Shown: in pieces, positions 2,017 to 9,323 of the stretch
Position numbering within the stretch: the stretch's first letter is position 1
Layout: every line of letters begins with the position of its first letter
NCBI GenBank assembly: GCA_003554345.1
Contig: PWGE01000240.1
Span: 1 to 9,323 of the forward strand
DNA length: 9,323 bases
Direction of reading: 5' to 3'
Source: T1SED10-198M sp003554345 [NCBI: Candidatus Sumerlaeota bacterium]
Lineage (GTDB): Bacteria > Sumerlaeota > T1SED10-198M
Notes under the pieces: generated by a model
Database searches by the model: none
Told to the model about the DNA's origin: nothing
Seen by the model: the letters and a program-made list of their open reading frames with translations, nothing else
Position numbers and translations under genes: made by a program

Positions 2017-2053
2017 GATTTGATAAAGTTTTAAGTTGAAAAGGAGGACTACA

Positions 2054-2938
2054 ATGTTTAAGCGCCTTGTCATTTTACTTTTATCTCTCTTCTGTATTAT
2101 CGGACTGAGCAATGATGTCTACACGGTATCAGGAATAGGTGATGAAGGAGACCCCTTTATATTTATTGATGGTAAAATAACCTTTGTAACCAATTTGACG
2201 CCGGAGGAAGCTCCAGAAGGAACCACGGTAGAGATATACGACCTTACAGAACGTCAAAATGTTAATTTTGCTCAAGGTACCGTCGTTGAAGAAGAAATAA
2301 AAACTGACGATACTCAGCCCGAAGAAGAGATCTATACAGTTTCAGGTATAGGCAGAGAAGGAGACCCTTTTATATTTATAGATGAAAAAATTACTTTTGT
2401 CACCAATCTGACACCTGAAGAAGCACCAGAGGGTACAGAGATCAAAATTTATGAACTTGTAGAAAGAGAAAATGTCAACTTTGCCGAAGGAATACTTGCA
2501 GAGGAAGAGAGAAAGCCGGAAGAACGTCCTGATAATGTCTATGAAGTGGCAGGCATTGGGAGAGAAGGTGATCCTTTTGTGCGTATCGATGACAAAATCA
2601 CCTTTGTCACCAACATAACCCCGGAACAGGCCCCCAAAGGCAGCCTCATTGAAATATATGATGTACAGGAACGGGAAACCGTTAATTTTGCTGAAGGAAG
2701 GGTTTATACAGAGCCAACAGAAGAAGAGCCCCCCTCAGAAAGGGAAACCGACGAAAAGGAGTTAGAAGAGAACGATGTCATAGATTTATCTATCACTATG
2801 ATTTCTGCTGAAGGTCATGGAATGGGTTTTTACGGACACTACTTGGTGTATGTTCCAGATGCCGAAGTGGGAGACACTGTAAATGTTAAAATAGAAACCA
2901 TAGAAGATCTTATTGCAAGAGGCAGCAAGACAGAATAA
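2054..2938 (+). CDS. Exported protein of four TRAM-like modules (three tandem repeats plus a C-terminal one)
   Basis: The product is 294 residues. I chose ATG 2054 because AAGGAGG sits six nt upstream; an in-frame TTG at 2036 would put that site inside the gene. Residues 1-20 (MFKR, then a hydrophobic core ending CIIGLS) are a short signal peptide or an N-terminal anchor. The Cys at 14 lacks a clear lipobox. Three repeats follow at 23-75, 94-146 and 163-215. Their shared pattern is Y-x-V-x-GIG-x-EGDPF-x-x-ID-x-KITFVTN-x-TPE-x-AP-x-G, then IY-x-x-x-ER-x-x-VNFA-x-G, separated by Glu/Pro-rich linkers. Residues 242-290 (ISAEGHGMGFYGHYLVYVP, then AEVGDTVNVKI) match the usual TRAM pattern closely, and the repeats match it more loosely (GREGD, ID, FV, then a hydrophobic strand). 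TRAM is an OB-like RNA-binding beta-barrel, known from MiaB, TrmA-type methylases and small archaeal proteins. Finding it behind a signal peptide is unusual, and its role here is unknown. The protein is strongly acidic. Confidence 0.85.
   Translation: MFKRLVILLLSLFCIIGLSNDVYTVSGIGDEGDPFIFIDGKITFVTNLTPEEAPEGTTVEIYDLTERQNVNFAQGTVVEEEIKTDDTQPEEEIYTVSGIGREGDPFIFIDEKITFVTNLTPEEAPEGTEIKIYELVERENVNFAEGILAEEERKPEERPDNVYEVAGIGREGDPFVRIDDKITFVTNITPEQAPKGSLIEIYDVQERETVNFAEGRVYTEPTEEEPPSERETDEKELEENDVIDLSITMISAEGHGMGFYGHYLVYVPDAEVGDTVNVKIETIEDLIARGSKTE
2120..2698 (+). repeat. Three tandem protein-coding repeats (period about 69-71 codons)
   Basis: The repeat cores lie at 2120-2278, 2333-2491 and 2540-2698, each 53 codons long, with variable acidic linkers of 16-18 codons. 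Proteins of units 1 and 2 are nearly identical over GDPFIFID and KITFVTNLTPEEAPEG, while the DNA differs at many third positions (ACCTTTGTAACC against ACTTTTGTCACC). This indicates old duplications held by selection on the protein rather than a recent DNA expansion. Confidence 0.85.
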
Positions 2939-3111: not shown

Positions 3112-3756
3112 TTACTCATCCTCAATAGTATCTGACTTGCCTGGATATAATTTCTTCAGACAATCAGGACAAATACTATGACTGAATCGTGCTTCAGAAT
3201 GCTCCGTGATAAATTTTTCCAGCTGATTCCAGTATCCTTTATCATCACGAATTTCTTTACAATTCATACATATGGGAATGATGCCACTTAAAACCTTAAT
3301 TTTTGATTGAGCTTCCCTGAGAGCACGGTTTTTCCGGTTAAGTTCTCGCGACATATTGGCCATTTCATTATTAAGAACAGTAATATGTTCCAGCACCTCC
3401 TCATTTTCCTGCATCATTCGTTCCCCTATTAATAGAAATCCCTGGTTTATCTTATAAAGGTAACATTCGACTGGTAAGGTACTATCGGCGGCTAGCACAA
3501 AGTCCAGTTTCACTTTTTTTGATGTTTCATCTGATGAGAATGAGATAAGTTTTTTACTTTTTCCAAAAAGATAGGACGTTACATTCTCCCCTTTTAAACT
3601 CTTACGGGAGGGATCCTGTAACAGCCTGAAAAAAGCAGGATTATAATCCTTAATAATATTTTTATCATCAAAAAATACGACGATGACATGGGAACTTTTC
3701 TCTAAATAATGGGAAAATACACCAGGAAAGGAAGAAGAAAGAATCTTATCCAGCAT
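3112..3756 (-). CDS. PAS-domain protein with coiled coil and C-terminal four-cysteine module
   Basis: The product is 214 residues and soluble, with no signal peptide or membrane segment. Residues about 18-110 look like a PAS sensor fold (HVIVVFFDDKNIIKDYNPAF opening, a LLQDPSRKSLKGENVTSYL middle, LYKINQGFLLIGER closing). Residues 114-153 (from QENEEVLEHI to REAQSKIK) form a coiled coil. Residues 154-206 carry IKVLSGIIPICMNCKEIR, DDKGYW and HSICPDCLKKLYP, with Cys163, Cys166, Cys196, Cys199 and His193 nearby. This short C-terminal module recurs at the ends of PAS, kinase and GGDEF signalling proteins in several phyla, and the cysteine pairs suggest zinc binding. There is no kinase, GGDEF or helix-turn-helix output, so it probably works by contact with a partner. 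The ATG overlaps the end of the upstream cobalamin-sensor gene by 11 nt, which suggests coupled translation and a shared pathway. Confidence 0.82.
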   Translation of the reverse strand: MLDKILSSSFPGVFSHYLEKSSHVIVVFFDDKNIIKDYNPAFFRLLQDPSRKSLKGENVTSYLFGKSKKLISFSSDETSKKVKLDFVLAADSTLPVECYLYKINQGFLLIGERMMQENEEVLEHITVLNNEMANMSRELNRKNRALREAQSKIKVLSGIIPICMNCKEIRDDKGYWNQLEKFITEHSEARFSHSICPDCLKKLYPGKSDTIEDE

Positions 3757-4864
3757 CCTGCCACCATTTCTGTGCCAGCTCTCTGGCAGTTATGAGATTA
3801 GAGGCAAAGCCATCTGCTTCAATGACTGCCTGCATAGAATGATTTTCATTTATCGCCTTTCCACCAACCATGATTTTAACAGAGCCCAGGTCCTTCTCTT
3901 TTCTGACTTCTGCTATTGTCTCCTGCACTTTATCAATATTAAAAGGCATGGTGACAGATATTGCCAGAATATCAGGTCTGAAGGATTTCATCAGCGTGAC
4001 GAGAGAGTGGGCAGGGGTATTGGCTCCCAGATAGCGCACATTCCAGCCTTGCTGTTCCAGAACATCCGCCAGCATCCAGGCACCAATTTCATGCAACTCA
4101 TCAGGGGAAGCTGTTACTACAATTTTTCCCTTCCTTTCCTTATCAATATTGAGTTTCAAACTAACTGTAGCCATAATACGAGCCACAATTGCTGAAGCCA
4201 GATGTTCATGAGCTACTGATATAACAGACTTTTCCCACAGTAAACCAATCTCATACATTACCGGCTGAATAACATAGAGATAAAATGTTTCGATATCAGG
4301 TGATTTCTTTAAAATAGATTCAGTCAAACTGAGACAGCTTCGATGATCACCTCGCAGTACAAACGATTGAAAAGCATTTTTTGTATCTAACCATTTTTCC
4401 GGCACAGAAGGTGTTTTGTCCAGGGAAACCTTTGATAATTCAATAATGGTTTCGTGCTTATCAATAAGCCAGCTGTAAATCCTGTTTATTTTTTTTGCCT
4501 GTTCCTCAGATAAAATGCTTTCAACGGCTTTCATCCAGCTTTTCAATTCAAGGGGAAAATAATCAAAAGAAACTCCATGAGCCCTGTATCTACGATAAAC
4601 CCATAACACGGTATTAACCAGTAGTTCATAGTCACCGATACTGAATATACAGGCCATCAGCCGGGCATGATGACGGTGATTTTCATACATAACCTCAAGA
4701 GAATTGGGTCCAAGAAGATCCTGAATGGAAGTTTCTTGCTTCATCCGTTCATCGACATACTTCTTTAAAGCAGGAATATGAGTCTGATAAGCAGCGGCAG
4801 TTTCCGGGTTAACAGAAGGAAGTCTTTGAGCTTCTCTGACGAGCTGTTCCAGCTTTGATTTCAT
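3746..4864 (-). CDS. Cobalamin-binding sensor protein with CarH-type W-x9-EH motif
   Basis: The product is 372 residues. Residues 1-145 are a mainly helical domain with LEVMYENHRHHARLM (56-70) and HGVSFDYFPLELKSW (96-110), which I cannot name. Residues about 160-240 fit the helical B12-binding cap (B12-binding_2 type), ending with W210 and E220-H221. That exact W-x9-EH spacing lines the adenosylcobalamin pocket in CarH photoreceptors. Residues 246-368 are a Rossmann-like B12-binding domain with E256-L-H258-E-I-G261 (the ExHxxG form, His258 as lower axial ligand), SVT at 303-305 and GGKAIN at 334-339. CarH-like light or cofactor sensing is therefore likely. There is no MerR helix-turn-helix, so output must be through another protein, most simply the PAS protein encoded in overlap downstream. 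The start is ATG 4862-4864 with AGGAGG at 4875-4880. An alternative role as a corrinoid carrier for a methyltransferase is less likely, since no methyltransferase gene is nearby. Confidence 0.87.
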   Translation of the reverse strand: MKSKLEQLVREAQRLPSVNPETAAAYQTHIPALKKYVDERMKQETSIQDLLGPNSLEVMYENHRHHARLMACIFSIGDYELLVNTVLWVYRRYRAHGVSFDYFPLELKSWMKAVESILSEEQAKKINRIYSWLIDKHETIIELSKVSLDKTPSVPEKWLDTKNAFQSFVLRGDHRSCLSLTESILKKSPDIETFYLYVIQPVMYEIGLLWEKSVISVAHEHLASAIVARIMATVSLKLNIDKERKGKIVVTASPDELHEIGAWMLADVLEQQGWNVRYLGANTPAHSLVTLMKSFRPDILAISVTMPFNIDKVQETIAEVRKEKDLGSVKIMVGGKAINENHSMQAVIEADGFASNLITARELAQKWWQDAG

Positions 4865-8105: not shown

Positions 8106-9323
8106 TCATTGAAGGAAAAGTGAAAGACGGTTGGAAATATGCACATTCGTACTGCCGCTTTCATAATCCAGGGTTAAAAACTGTAGCTCCGGAAAACAAT
8201 CCCGAATTTTTTTCTGCAGACCCTTGGAAAGGATGTGATTGGAAATACAGCCAAACGGCTGAACAGAAACAATATGGCGAACACCTCTCCGATAAAGCAT
8301 CATTATTTCAAGAGGTAGTAACCAGGACTCTCCAAACTGCAAACCCATAGAAACAATATTATCGTGAATACCATCCGATATATCGAATTCAGGTTGAGGT
8401 CTATAATACTCTTTCATCACGGCAGTCACATCCTTCCGATAGTACTCAAAAAACAATTTCTTCAGACTGTTTTGCAATACGAGCGGTAAGTTTTTTTTAT
8501 TACTTCGTCGATAATTAAATAATTGCGTATGAAAGTCCATTTCCAGGAAATGCATAAAACCAGGCACCACCGCTTCATAGCCATTGTTTTCCAGCCAGTG
8601 TACCAGGTTTTTATTTGAAAAACTGTTCATTTTGAGATAAATCTCTCCCACCACTCCAACGGGTACATTTCGTTTCTCATAGACCGGAACTGCATTAAAT
8701 TCCTGGACGACCCGGCCTAAAAATTTCCTCATGCTTTTCCGATCAGGGGAACCGGCAAGAAATTCCTGCAATCGCAGTTTCACATCCTGCAGCAGCTCAT
8801 TTGTCTGCCCCGGCTTCTTTTCATAAGGCCGGGTAGACAAAACCATACTCTGAATAGCATCAGCAAGTAAAAAGCCCATACTGCCTTTCTTTAACAATTG
8901 ATAGCGATTAACAGAAAACGCATCGAAAGAACCAGCTGTGGAAAGTGTGACCACAGGAATAGAATGATAGCCATTCTGCCGTAAAGCTTTTTTCATAATA
9001 GCAGAATAATTGCTGGCACGACATTGACCACCAGTTCGTGAAAGGGCCACAATAATATTTTCTTTATCCGGATCTATGCCCCTCTTTTCAAGGGTTGTCA
9101 AAACATCTCCGACCACTATCTTTGCCGGATAGCACATATCGTTATTTACAAAATTCAAGCCACATTCTACATTGTTTTCATTCTGTTCAGAAGGAACAAT
9201 AATGTCGTAGCCCATAGATTCAAAAACAGAGGTGATGACTTCCGTGTATATGTCGGCAAGATAGGGAATCAACAAGGTTGGTTTCTTGCCGGCATCTGAT
9301 ATCACAGAAGGAGCGTCATTAGA
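8106..9323 (-). CDS. Acyl-CoA dehydratase activase-related protein, C-terminal part (5' end outside window)
   Basis: A 405-residue open frame enters from the right edge without a stop and ends at TGA 8106. An internal GTG at 9305 is a possible start, but the frame stays open upstream of it and has no good ribosome binding site, so I treat the gene as partial. The segment matches the HgdB-like C-terminal region of the long proteins related to 2-hydroxyacyl-CoA dehydratase activases: LLIPYLADIYTEVITSVFES, NFVNNDMCYPAKIVVGDVL, SRTGGQCRASNY, VGVVGEIYLKMNSFSNKN, then GESWLLPLE and VSVQPFGCISNH. Three conserved cysteines (visible residues 64, 101 and 359) could bind an iron-sulfur cluster. Such proteins carry ATPase (BcrAD/BadFG-type) domains upstream, which would lie outside this window. 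The substrate is unknown. The gene ends 130 nt upstream of rpsF, with no clear terminator between. Confidence 0.85.
   Translation of the reverse strand, partial: SNDAPSVISDAGKKPTLLIPYLADIYTEVITSVFESMGYDIIVPSEQNENNVECGLNFVNNDMCYPAKIVVGDVLTTLEKRGIDPDKENIIVALSRTGGQCRASNYSAIMKKALRQNGYHSIPVVTLSTAGSFDAFSVNRYQLLKKGSMGFLLADAIQSMVLSTRPYEKKPGQTNELLQDVKLRLQEFLAGSPDRKSMRKFLGRVVQEFNAVPVYEKRNVPVGVVGEIYLKMNSFSNKNLVHWLENNGYEAVVPGFMHFLEMDFHTQLFNYRRSNKKNLPLVLQNSLKKLFFEYYRKDVTAVMKEYYRPQPEFDISDGIHDNIVSMGLQFGESWLLPLEIMMLYRRGVRHIVSVQPFGCISNHILSKGLQKKIRDCFPELQFLTLDYESGSTNVHISNRLSLFLQ

Follow-up and report, generated by a model that had tools for sequence, protein, structure and literature searches.

A predicted exported protein of acidic TRAM-like repeats in a Sumerlaeota bacterium

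The gene at 2054..2938 (+) of a 9,323-nucleotide stretch from a Candidatus Sumerlaeota bacterium (the whole stretch is called the window here) encodes a protein of 294 residues, in which a signal-peptide-like start is followed by three related TRAM-like modules and a fourth module with a canonical TRAM domain. We consider it highly probable that this anatomy, a TRAM array that is exported, is right. TRAM is described in the accessible part of PMC5572242 as a domain that binds RNA, present both in enzymes that modify RNA and in archaeal RNA chaperones. An exported, repeated and acidic TRAM, if true, would mean that the domain is able to leave RNA work altogether, as OB folds did elsewhere. The array would offer a simple system (one module, one assay) in which to ask what the barrel binds with RNA out of reach, and it would carry a warning for annotation, namely that a TRAM match need not mean a cytoplasmic RNA function.

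Reading frame, repeats and charge

The frame runs from an ATG at 2054 to a TAA ending at 2938 on the + strand. The program-listed open reading frame begins with a TTG at 2036; the ATG is the better-placed start, and a Shine-Dalgarno-like AAAGGAGG (2040..2047, +), read directly from the sequence, lies 6 bases upstream of it. Module 1 (residues 21-80; 2114..2293, +), module 2 (residues 92-151; 2327..2506, +) and module 3 (residues 161-220; 2534..2713, +) contain the pattern GIG-x-EGDPF..ID-x-KITFVTN that the first-pass annotation had read as a triplicated unit. In module 4 (residues 239-294; 2768..2935, +), EGHGMGF, LVYVP and AEVGDTVNVKI were all found, as that annotation had reported. The repeats are real, but the word "near-identical" applied to them was a little strong, since modules 1 and 3 have 77% and 65% protein identity to module 2, respectively.

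DNA identity among modules 1-3 was 64-72%. Differences were counted by codon position, because dS between modules was not computable and was taken as saturated. Results showed 11/6/34 differences at positions 1/2/3 between modules 1 and 2, with 17/11/36 and 17/9/37 for the other two pairs. The differences thus fall mostly at third codon positions, which indicates that the repeats are under protein-level selection and do not come from a recent DNA slip.

The protein is acidic in all of its parts behind the start. By charge count, the linkers are net -4 over 11 residues (2294..2326, +), net -1 over 9 residues (2507..2533, +) and net -7 over the 18 residues leading to module 4 (2714..2767, +), in agreement with the acidic linkers that had been noticed earlier, and modules 1-4 themselves have net charges of -11, -11, -6 and -8. 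In total the mature protein has 69 acidic and 21 basic residues, a net charge of -48 and a pI of 4.05. Among other proteins of the same window, S18 (pI 10.49) and L9 (pI 7.80) are not acidic, and S6 and SSB are mildly so. The net charge of 32 TRAM domains with short flanks, taken from the host genome and its phylum, had a median of +2 (range -2 to +8), and the archaeal TRAM proteins 1yvc and 1yez are at -1 each. A haloarchaeal TRAM domain was at net -9; haloarchaeal proteins are generally acidic. The ~142-residue haloarchaeal plasmid protein with a C-terminal TRAM of this charge (L074:55-483) adjoins a gene for the MC1 chromosomal protein.

A paralogue of 163 residues was found on another contig of the same genome (G000:C64; L002:1480-1971). 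Its two modules stand directly behind a hydrophobic start of its own and are followed by a charged tail; module 4 is missing. Sixteen positions are invariant across the five modules, three from the window protein and two from the paralogue.

Relation of the modules to TRAM and other OB folds

The assignment of module 4 to TRAM, made earlier from motifs, was confirmed by Pfam TRAM (PF01938), which scored 23.5 bits in the whole protein and 26.5 bits with module 4 alone against a cut-off of 21. Module 4 also matched 1yez in phmmer (E 4.9e-6), scored 71 in pairwise alignment with 1yvc, and gave E 3.9e-13 with the C-terminal portion of the aIF2-beta model of NCBIfam, where its 49.2 bits fall short of the cut-off of 243. 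With the PyTRAM RNA chaperone model (NF053605), the whole protein reached 44.8 bits, under the curated threshold of 85. A Pfam search with the full sequence at E up to 1 gave TRAM and three families that scored under their cut-offs; BOF was not among the three.

For modules 1-3, the earlier claim that the repeats are TRAM-like held in profile and shuffle tests, but not at the Pfam cut-off. Searched singly, none of the three had a Pfam match at E up to 1, and module 3 gave a weak PyTRAM match (13.5 bits, E 0.044). When the module profile was compared with an alignment of four TRAM sequences, three of them archaeal (1yvc, 1yez, one haloarchaeal TRAM and streptococcal RlmCD), the score was 30.0 (E 5.6e-6, probability 85.5), and 300 column shuffles gave 17.8 at most. 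An HMM of the same alignment scored modules 1, 2 and 3 at 6.2, 3.5 and 7.2 bits and the paralogue at 0.8 bits, no clear match; the highest two of 2000 shuffles scored 8.6 and 5.6 bits, and nine exceeded 3.5. No signal was obtained with a profile of 32 mostly RumA-type TRAM domains, made without locus L004, whose domain read differently: the module profile scored 13.7, and at least 8 of 200 shuffles were higher, the best at 19.4.

Pairwise alignments were strongest with archaeal 1yvc. With this protein, modules 1, 2 and 3 scored 55, 56 and 70 (z 7.4, 6.9 and 10.1), and none of 1000 shuffles reached any of these scores. Module 3 was the closest of the three, and its identities with 1yvc span the whole domain (YEV, G..GD, RID, FV.N, KGS, FAE). 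The first module of the paralogue likewise was not reached by any of 1000 shuffles against 1yvc, and the second was less clear (14 of 1000). Comparisons with 1yez were weaker, with 3, 5 and 2 of 1000 shuffles reaching the scores of modules 1, 2 and 3; with RlmCD the corresponding counts were 1, 22 and 0. A RumA of the host phylum and the TRAM locus L005 of the host genome itself gave no match (97 to 972 of 1000 shuffles). In a module-profile search of solved structures, two matches (E 0.58 and 0.61) were taken as chance.

Standalone archaeal TRAM proteins (MMP0076, PDB 1yvc; MM1357, PDB 1yez) have the same order of motifs over the domain as the protein described here, and among the five TRAM sequences compared pairwise, 1yvc was the best partner of modules 1-3 and 1yez that of module 4. 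Whereas 1yvc and 1yez are small single-domain proteins, four strongly acidic domains stand here behind a signal-like segment. Modules 1-3 further differ from the archaeal TRAMs, and from the TRAM alignment, in being two residues shorter near strand 1 and five residues longer after strand 3. On the sequence comparisons, the TRAM resemblance of modules 1-3 is real but uneven, strongest with archaeal 1yvc and partly shared with bacterial RlmCD. We would therefore regard these modules as derived TRAM relatives, not textbook TRAMs, and an archaeal origin of the repeats is put forward as a lead only.

To the sequence comparisons a fold prediction was added. AlphaFold2 modelled module 2 alone, with the other four modules as alignment, as five strands at pLDDT 93.1, and the predicted fold was an OB/TRAM-like barrel, as had been expected of the modules. 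Foldseek with this model returned nothing at E 0.001 or better; its top row was Rpb7 (OB/S1-type, not TRAM), followed by 1yvc and RumA. VIA-align placed TRAM domains on top (range Z 7.3-7.0; RumA 7.3, RlmCD 7.2), with staphylococcal enterotoxin L, a non-TRAM OB fold, next at Z 6.7, within 1 Z of the top. At about Z 6 came MiaB-type proteins, other OB folds and 1yvc (Z 6.2, 31% identity over 52 residues). Since these Z values are below 8, structure alone does not separate TRAM from other OB folds; sequence comparison does. The TRAM domains of RumA, RlmCD and MiaB-type proteins have the same barrel as the module 2 model, and the predicted fold of module 2 is an OB fold, most like TRAM. The full-length model was poor (pLDDT 56.1), with strands in the first three modules, better in 1 and 2, and module 4 not formed; it is too poor to be used for the arrangement of the domains.

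Export-like start and distribution of the array

The hydrophobic N-terminal segment on which the claim of export had been based is present: K3-R4 is followed by a hydrophobic run whose best 12-residue Kyte-Doolittle mean is 3.43. Residues 1-20 (2054..2113, +) resemble a signal peptide, with a putative cleavage site near GLS/ND, placed by eye, and the low-confidence full-length model has a helix at residues 2-17. The starts of both paralogues fit signal peptides in hydropathy and composition (positive start, hydrophobic core, small residues), so that a hydrophobic, export-like start, be it signal peptide or N-terminal anchor, was found in each. Identity between the two proteins was 7/20 in the first 20 residues and 33/55 in residues 21-75; a start less conserved than the stretch that follows fits signal peptides, in which the property is kept and not the sequence. 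Positive charges precede the hydrophobic run of the window protein and acidic residues follow it, with a similar layout in the paralogue, and by the positive-inside rule this favours a location outside. From hydropathy we infer that the protein is exported across the inner membrane.

The array family is known here from one genome only. No relatives of the repeat module outside the host genome were found in genome contigs, viral contigs, phages and plasmids, or whole genomes. The genome-contig scans gave 113 and 64 pattern-matching stretches and the viral-contig scan gave 82, none of which was confirmed, the pattern step reaching close relatives only; tblastn against phages and plasmids gave no match. 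Searching whole genomes with the full protein found 2 of 61 genomes including the host, the second through a 465-residue frame that matched residues 232-280. The module profile found 2 of 40 genomes in the phylum and 3 of 386, the host being counted where present, and without the host 0 of 400 and 2 of 383, in genome sets that partly overlap. Weak module-profile matches in G017 (E 0.041), G059 (E 0.0052) and G292 (E 0.0085) were taken as chance, given the number of genomes searched.

Broader models recovered larger proteins. When the modules, module 4 and two archaeal TRAMs were combined in one mixed profile, 52 of 386 genomes including the host were matched; the non-host matches numbered 52, and 50 of them lay in frames of 333-554 residues. 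In the rest of the phylum, 32 of the 34 non-host matches of the PyTRAM model were in frames of 336-634 residues, which is enzyme size. Three further Pfam TRAM matches (L004, L005, L007) lie in the host genome. We inspected 61 TRAM loci, a part of all matches, namely these 3, 30 PyTRAM matches of the phylum and 28 mixed-profile matches, with start codons guessed as the first ATG. Motifs that we take to be RumA-type occurred in about 53 of the 61, a rough count, as the frames of at least L025 and L057 differ from those of the search and four loci were cut. The TRAM domains of RumA/RlmCD, MiaB/RimO and YacL are joined to an enzyme or PIN domain and are cytoplasmic. Of the inspected loci, only L005 (G000:C216), a 350-residue frame with a C-terminal TRAM, had a start comparably hydrophobic to those of the two paralogues (hydropathy 2.68; next highest 2.12), and it is presumably a YacL-type PIN-TRAM protein. 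A literature search, in which subscription papers were mostly outside the coverage, found no paper joining a TRAM domain with a signal peptide, nor one joining it with an OB fold and the term extracellular; papers pairing a TRAM domain with secreted or periplasm were off topic as far as their titles and the beginnings of their abstracts go.

Possible function, alternatives and gene neighbourhood

As a working mechanism, we propose that the N-terminal signal peptide takes the protein across the inner membrane, or anchors it facing out. The mature part would be a string of four TRAM/OB-type barrels, three of them related, derived copies on short acidic linkers and one a more canonical C-terminal copy, and duplication of a standalone TRAM, which may have been of archaeal type, probably gave rise to the repeats. 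Beyond the inner membrane, the role in RNA modification would be gone. Export would, if real, take the protein away from cellular RNA, a view that the charge of the modules supports, and loss of RNA binding is plausible. The reuse of the fold outside the cytoplasm that the first-pass annotation had suggested is supported as a proposal. The array may instead hold cationic peptides, proteins or metal ions in the envelope, and here the ligand is suggested by analogy with SipA. That an exported TRAM/OB array acts there as an acidic multivalent binder of such ligands has, in our judgement, a little less than an even chance, and any one named ligand class is unlikely to be the right one. The history of the array is a more tentative matter: an archaeal-type RNA-chaperone TRAM may have been gained by a bacterium, put behind a signal peptide, multiplied and turned to an extracytoplasmic ligand, in a lineage-restricted manner and with no relative found in the searched collections. 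Archaeal TRAMs are described as RNA chaperones in the accessible parts of PMC5572242 and PMC6705878.

The analogy with the periplasmic BOF family (YgiW/YdeI/SipA), which are exported small OB barrels as is proposed here, is one of use and not of family. BOF proteins are single-domain, and neither the whole protein nor any of the four modules nor the paralogue matched BOF in Pfam, even at E up to 1. According to the accessible part of PMC6370654, SipA, a periplasmic OB-fold protein from Vibrio cholerae, has cationic antimicrobial peptides as ligands and also interacts with OmpA. The putative lipoprotein KPN03535 (PMC2954213) is a further case of an OB fold that is exported.

Modules 1-3 might belong to a different lineage of exported OB barrels, of BOF-like or S1-like type, that became joined to a single genuine TRAM and resembles TRAM by convergence. 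Such an origin would fit the missing Pfam TRAM matches of these modules, the lack of signal against the mostly RumA-type profile, the Rpb7 row of Foldseek and the ties with non-TRAM OB folds in VIA-align. We nevertheless hold it to be quite unlikely, as the module profile scores far higher against the four-sequence TRAM alignment than any shuffle did, the identities of module 3 with 1yvc run along the full domain, and the Pfam matches of the whole protein include TRAM and none to BOF, modules 1-3 alone matching nothing. A different possibility accepts the TRAM assignment and places the array inside the cell, as an RNA-binding protein tethered by an uncleaved anchor with its TRAMs facing the cytoplasm. 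The PIN-TRAM protein YacL is a model for an inward-facing anchored TRAM, and the host genome has in L005 a TRAM frame with a hydrophobic N-terminus; the charge layout favours the outside, however, and module 1 begins directly after the one hydrophobic segment, so that we judge the tether very unlikely.

Nor need export end nucleic-acid binding, for the array could have kept the RNA or DNA binding of TRAM and hold extracellular DNA or RNA. TRAM domains do bind RNA according to the accessible part of PMC5572242, and because an acidic haloarchaeal TRAM exists, acidity alone cannot exclude RNA binding. The mature charge nevertheless lies far from the median of the 32 TRAM domains and from 1yvc and 1yez, and we regard such a binder as highly unlikely. 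An artefact is barely credible, be it a frame that is open by chance, a gene in decay or a contig from contamination. The assembly (2.55 Mb) is indeed in 454 contigs, with a completeness of 87.66% and a contamination of 4.32%; chance or decay, on the other hand, is already contradicted by the selection pattern in the third-position-biased differences between repeats, and the Shine-Dalgarno-like sequence before the ATG, the paralogue on another contig and the bacterial ribosomal genes on the same contig (S6, S18 and L9, together with SSB and a PerR-like regulator) also speak against an artefact.

Around the gene of the proposed exported array, the neighbourhood yields no function, as no common neighbour was seen when those of the two paralogues were compared by eye. 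To the left lies a divergent gene (2-1768, -) that runs off the window; its large product begins with a hydrophobic stretch and weakly matches the BT3328-type hyaluronate lyase family (26.7 bits against a cut-off of 1100). On the other side, 3112-4864 (-) holds a B12-binding protein with CarH/corrinoid-like domains, whose end overlaps the start of a second protein with a weak PAS match below cut-off and a cysteine-rich C-terminal stretch; the pair is probably a two-gene operon and perhaps a light or corrinoid sensor. Farther along, a frame open at the window edge (8106-9323, -) matched the CoA enzyme activase domain DUF2229 with 32.5 bits (cut-off 29.4).
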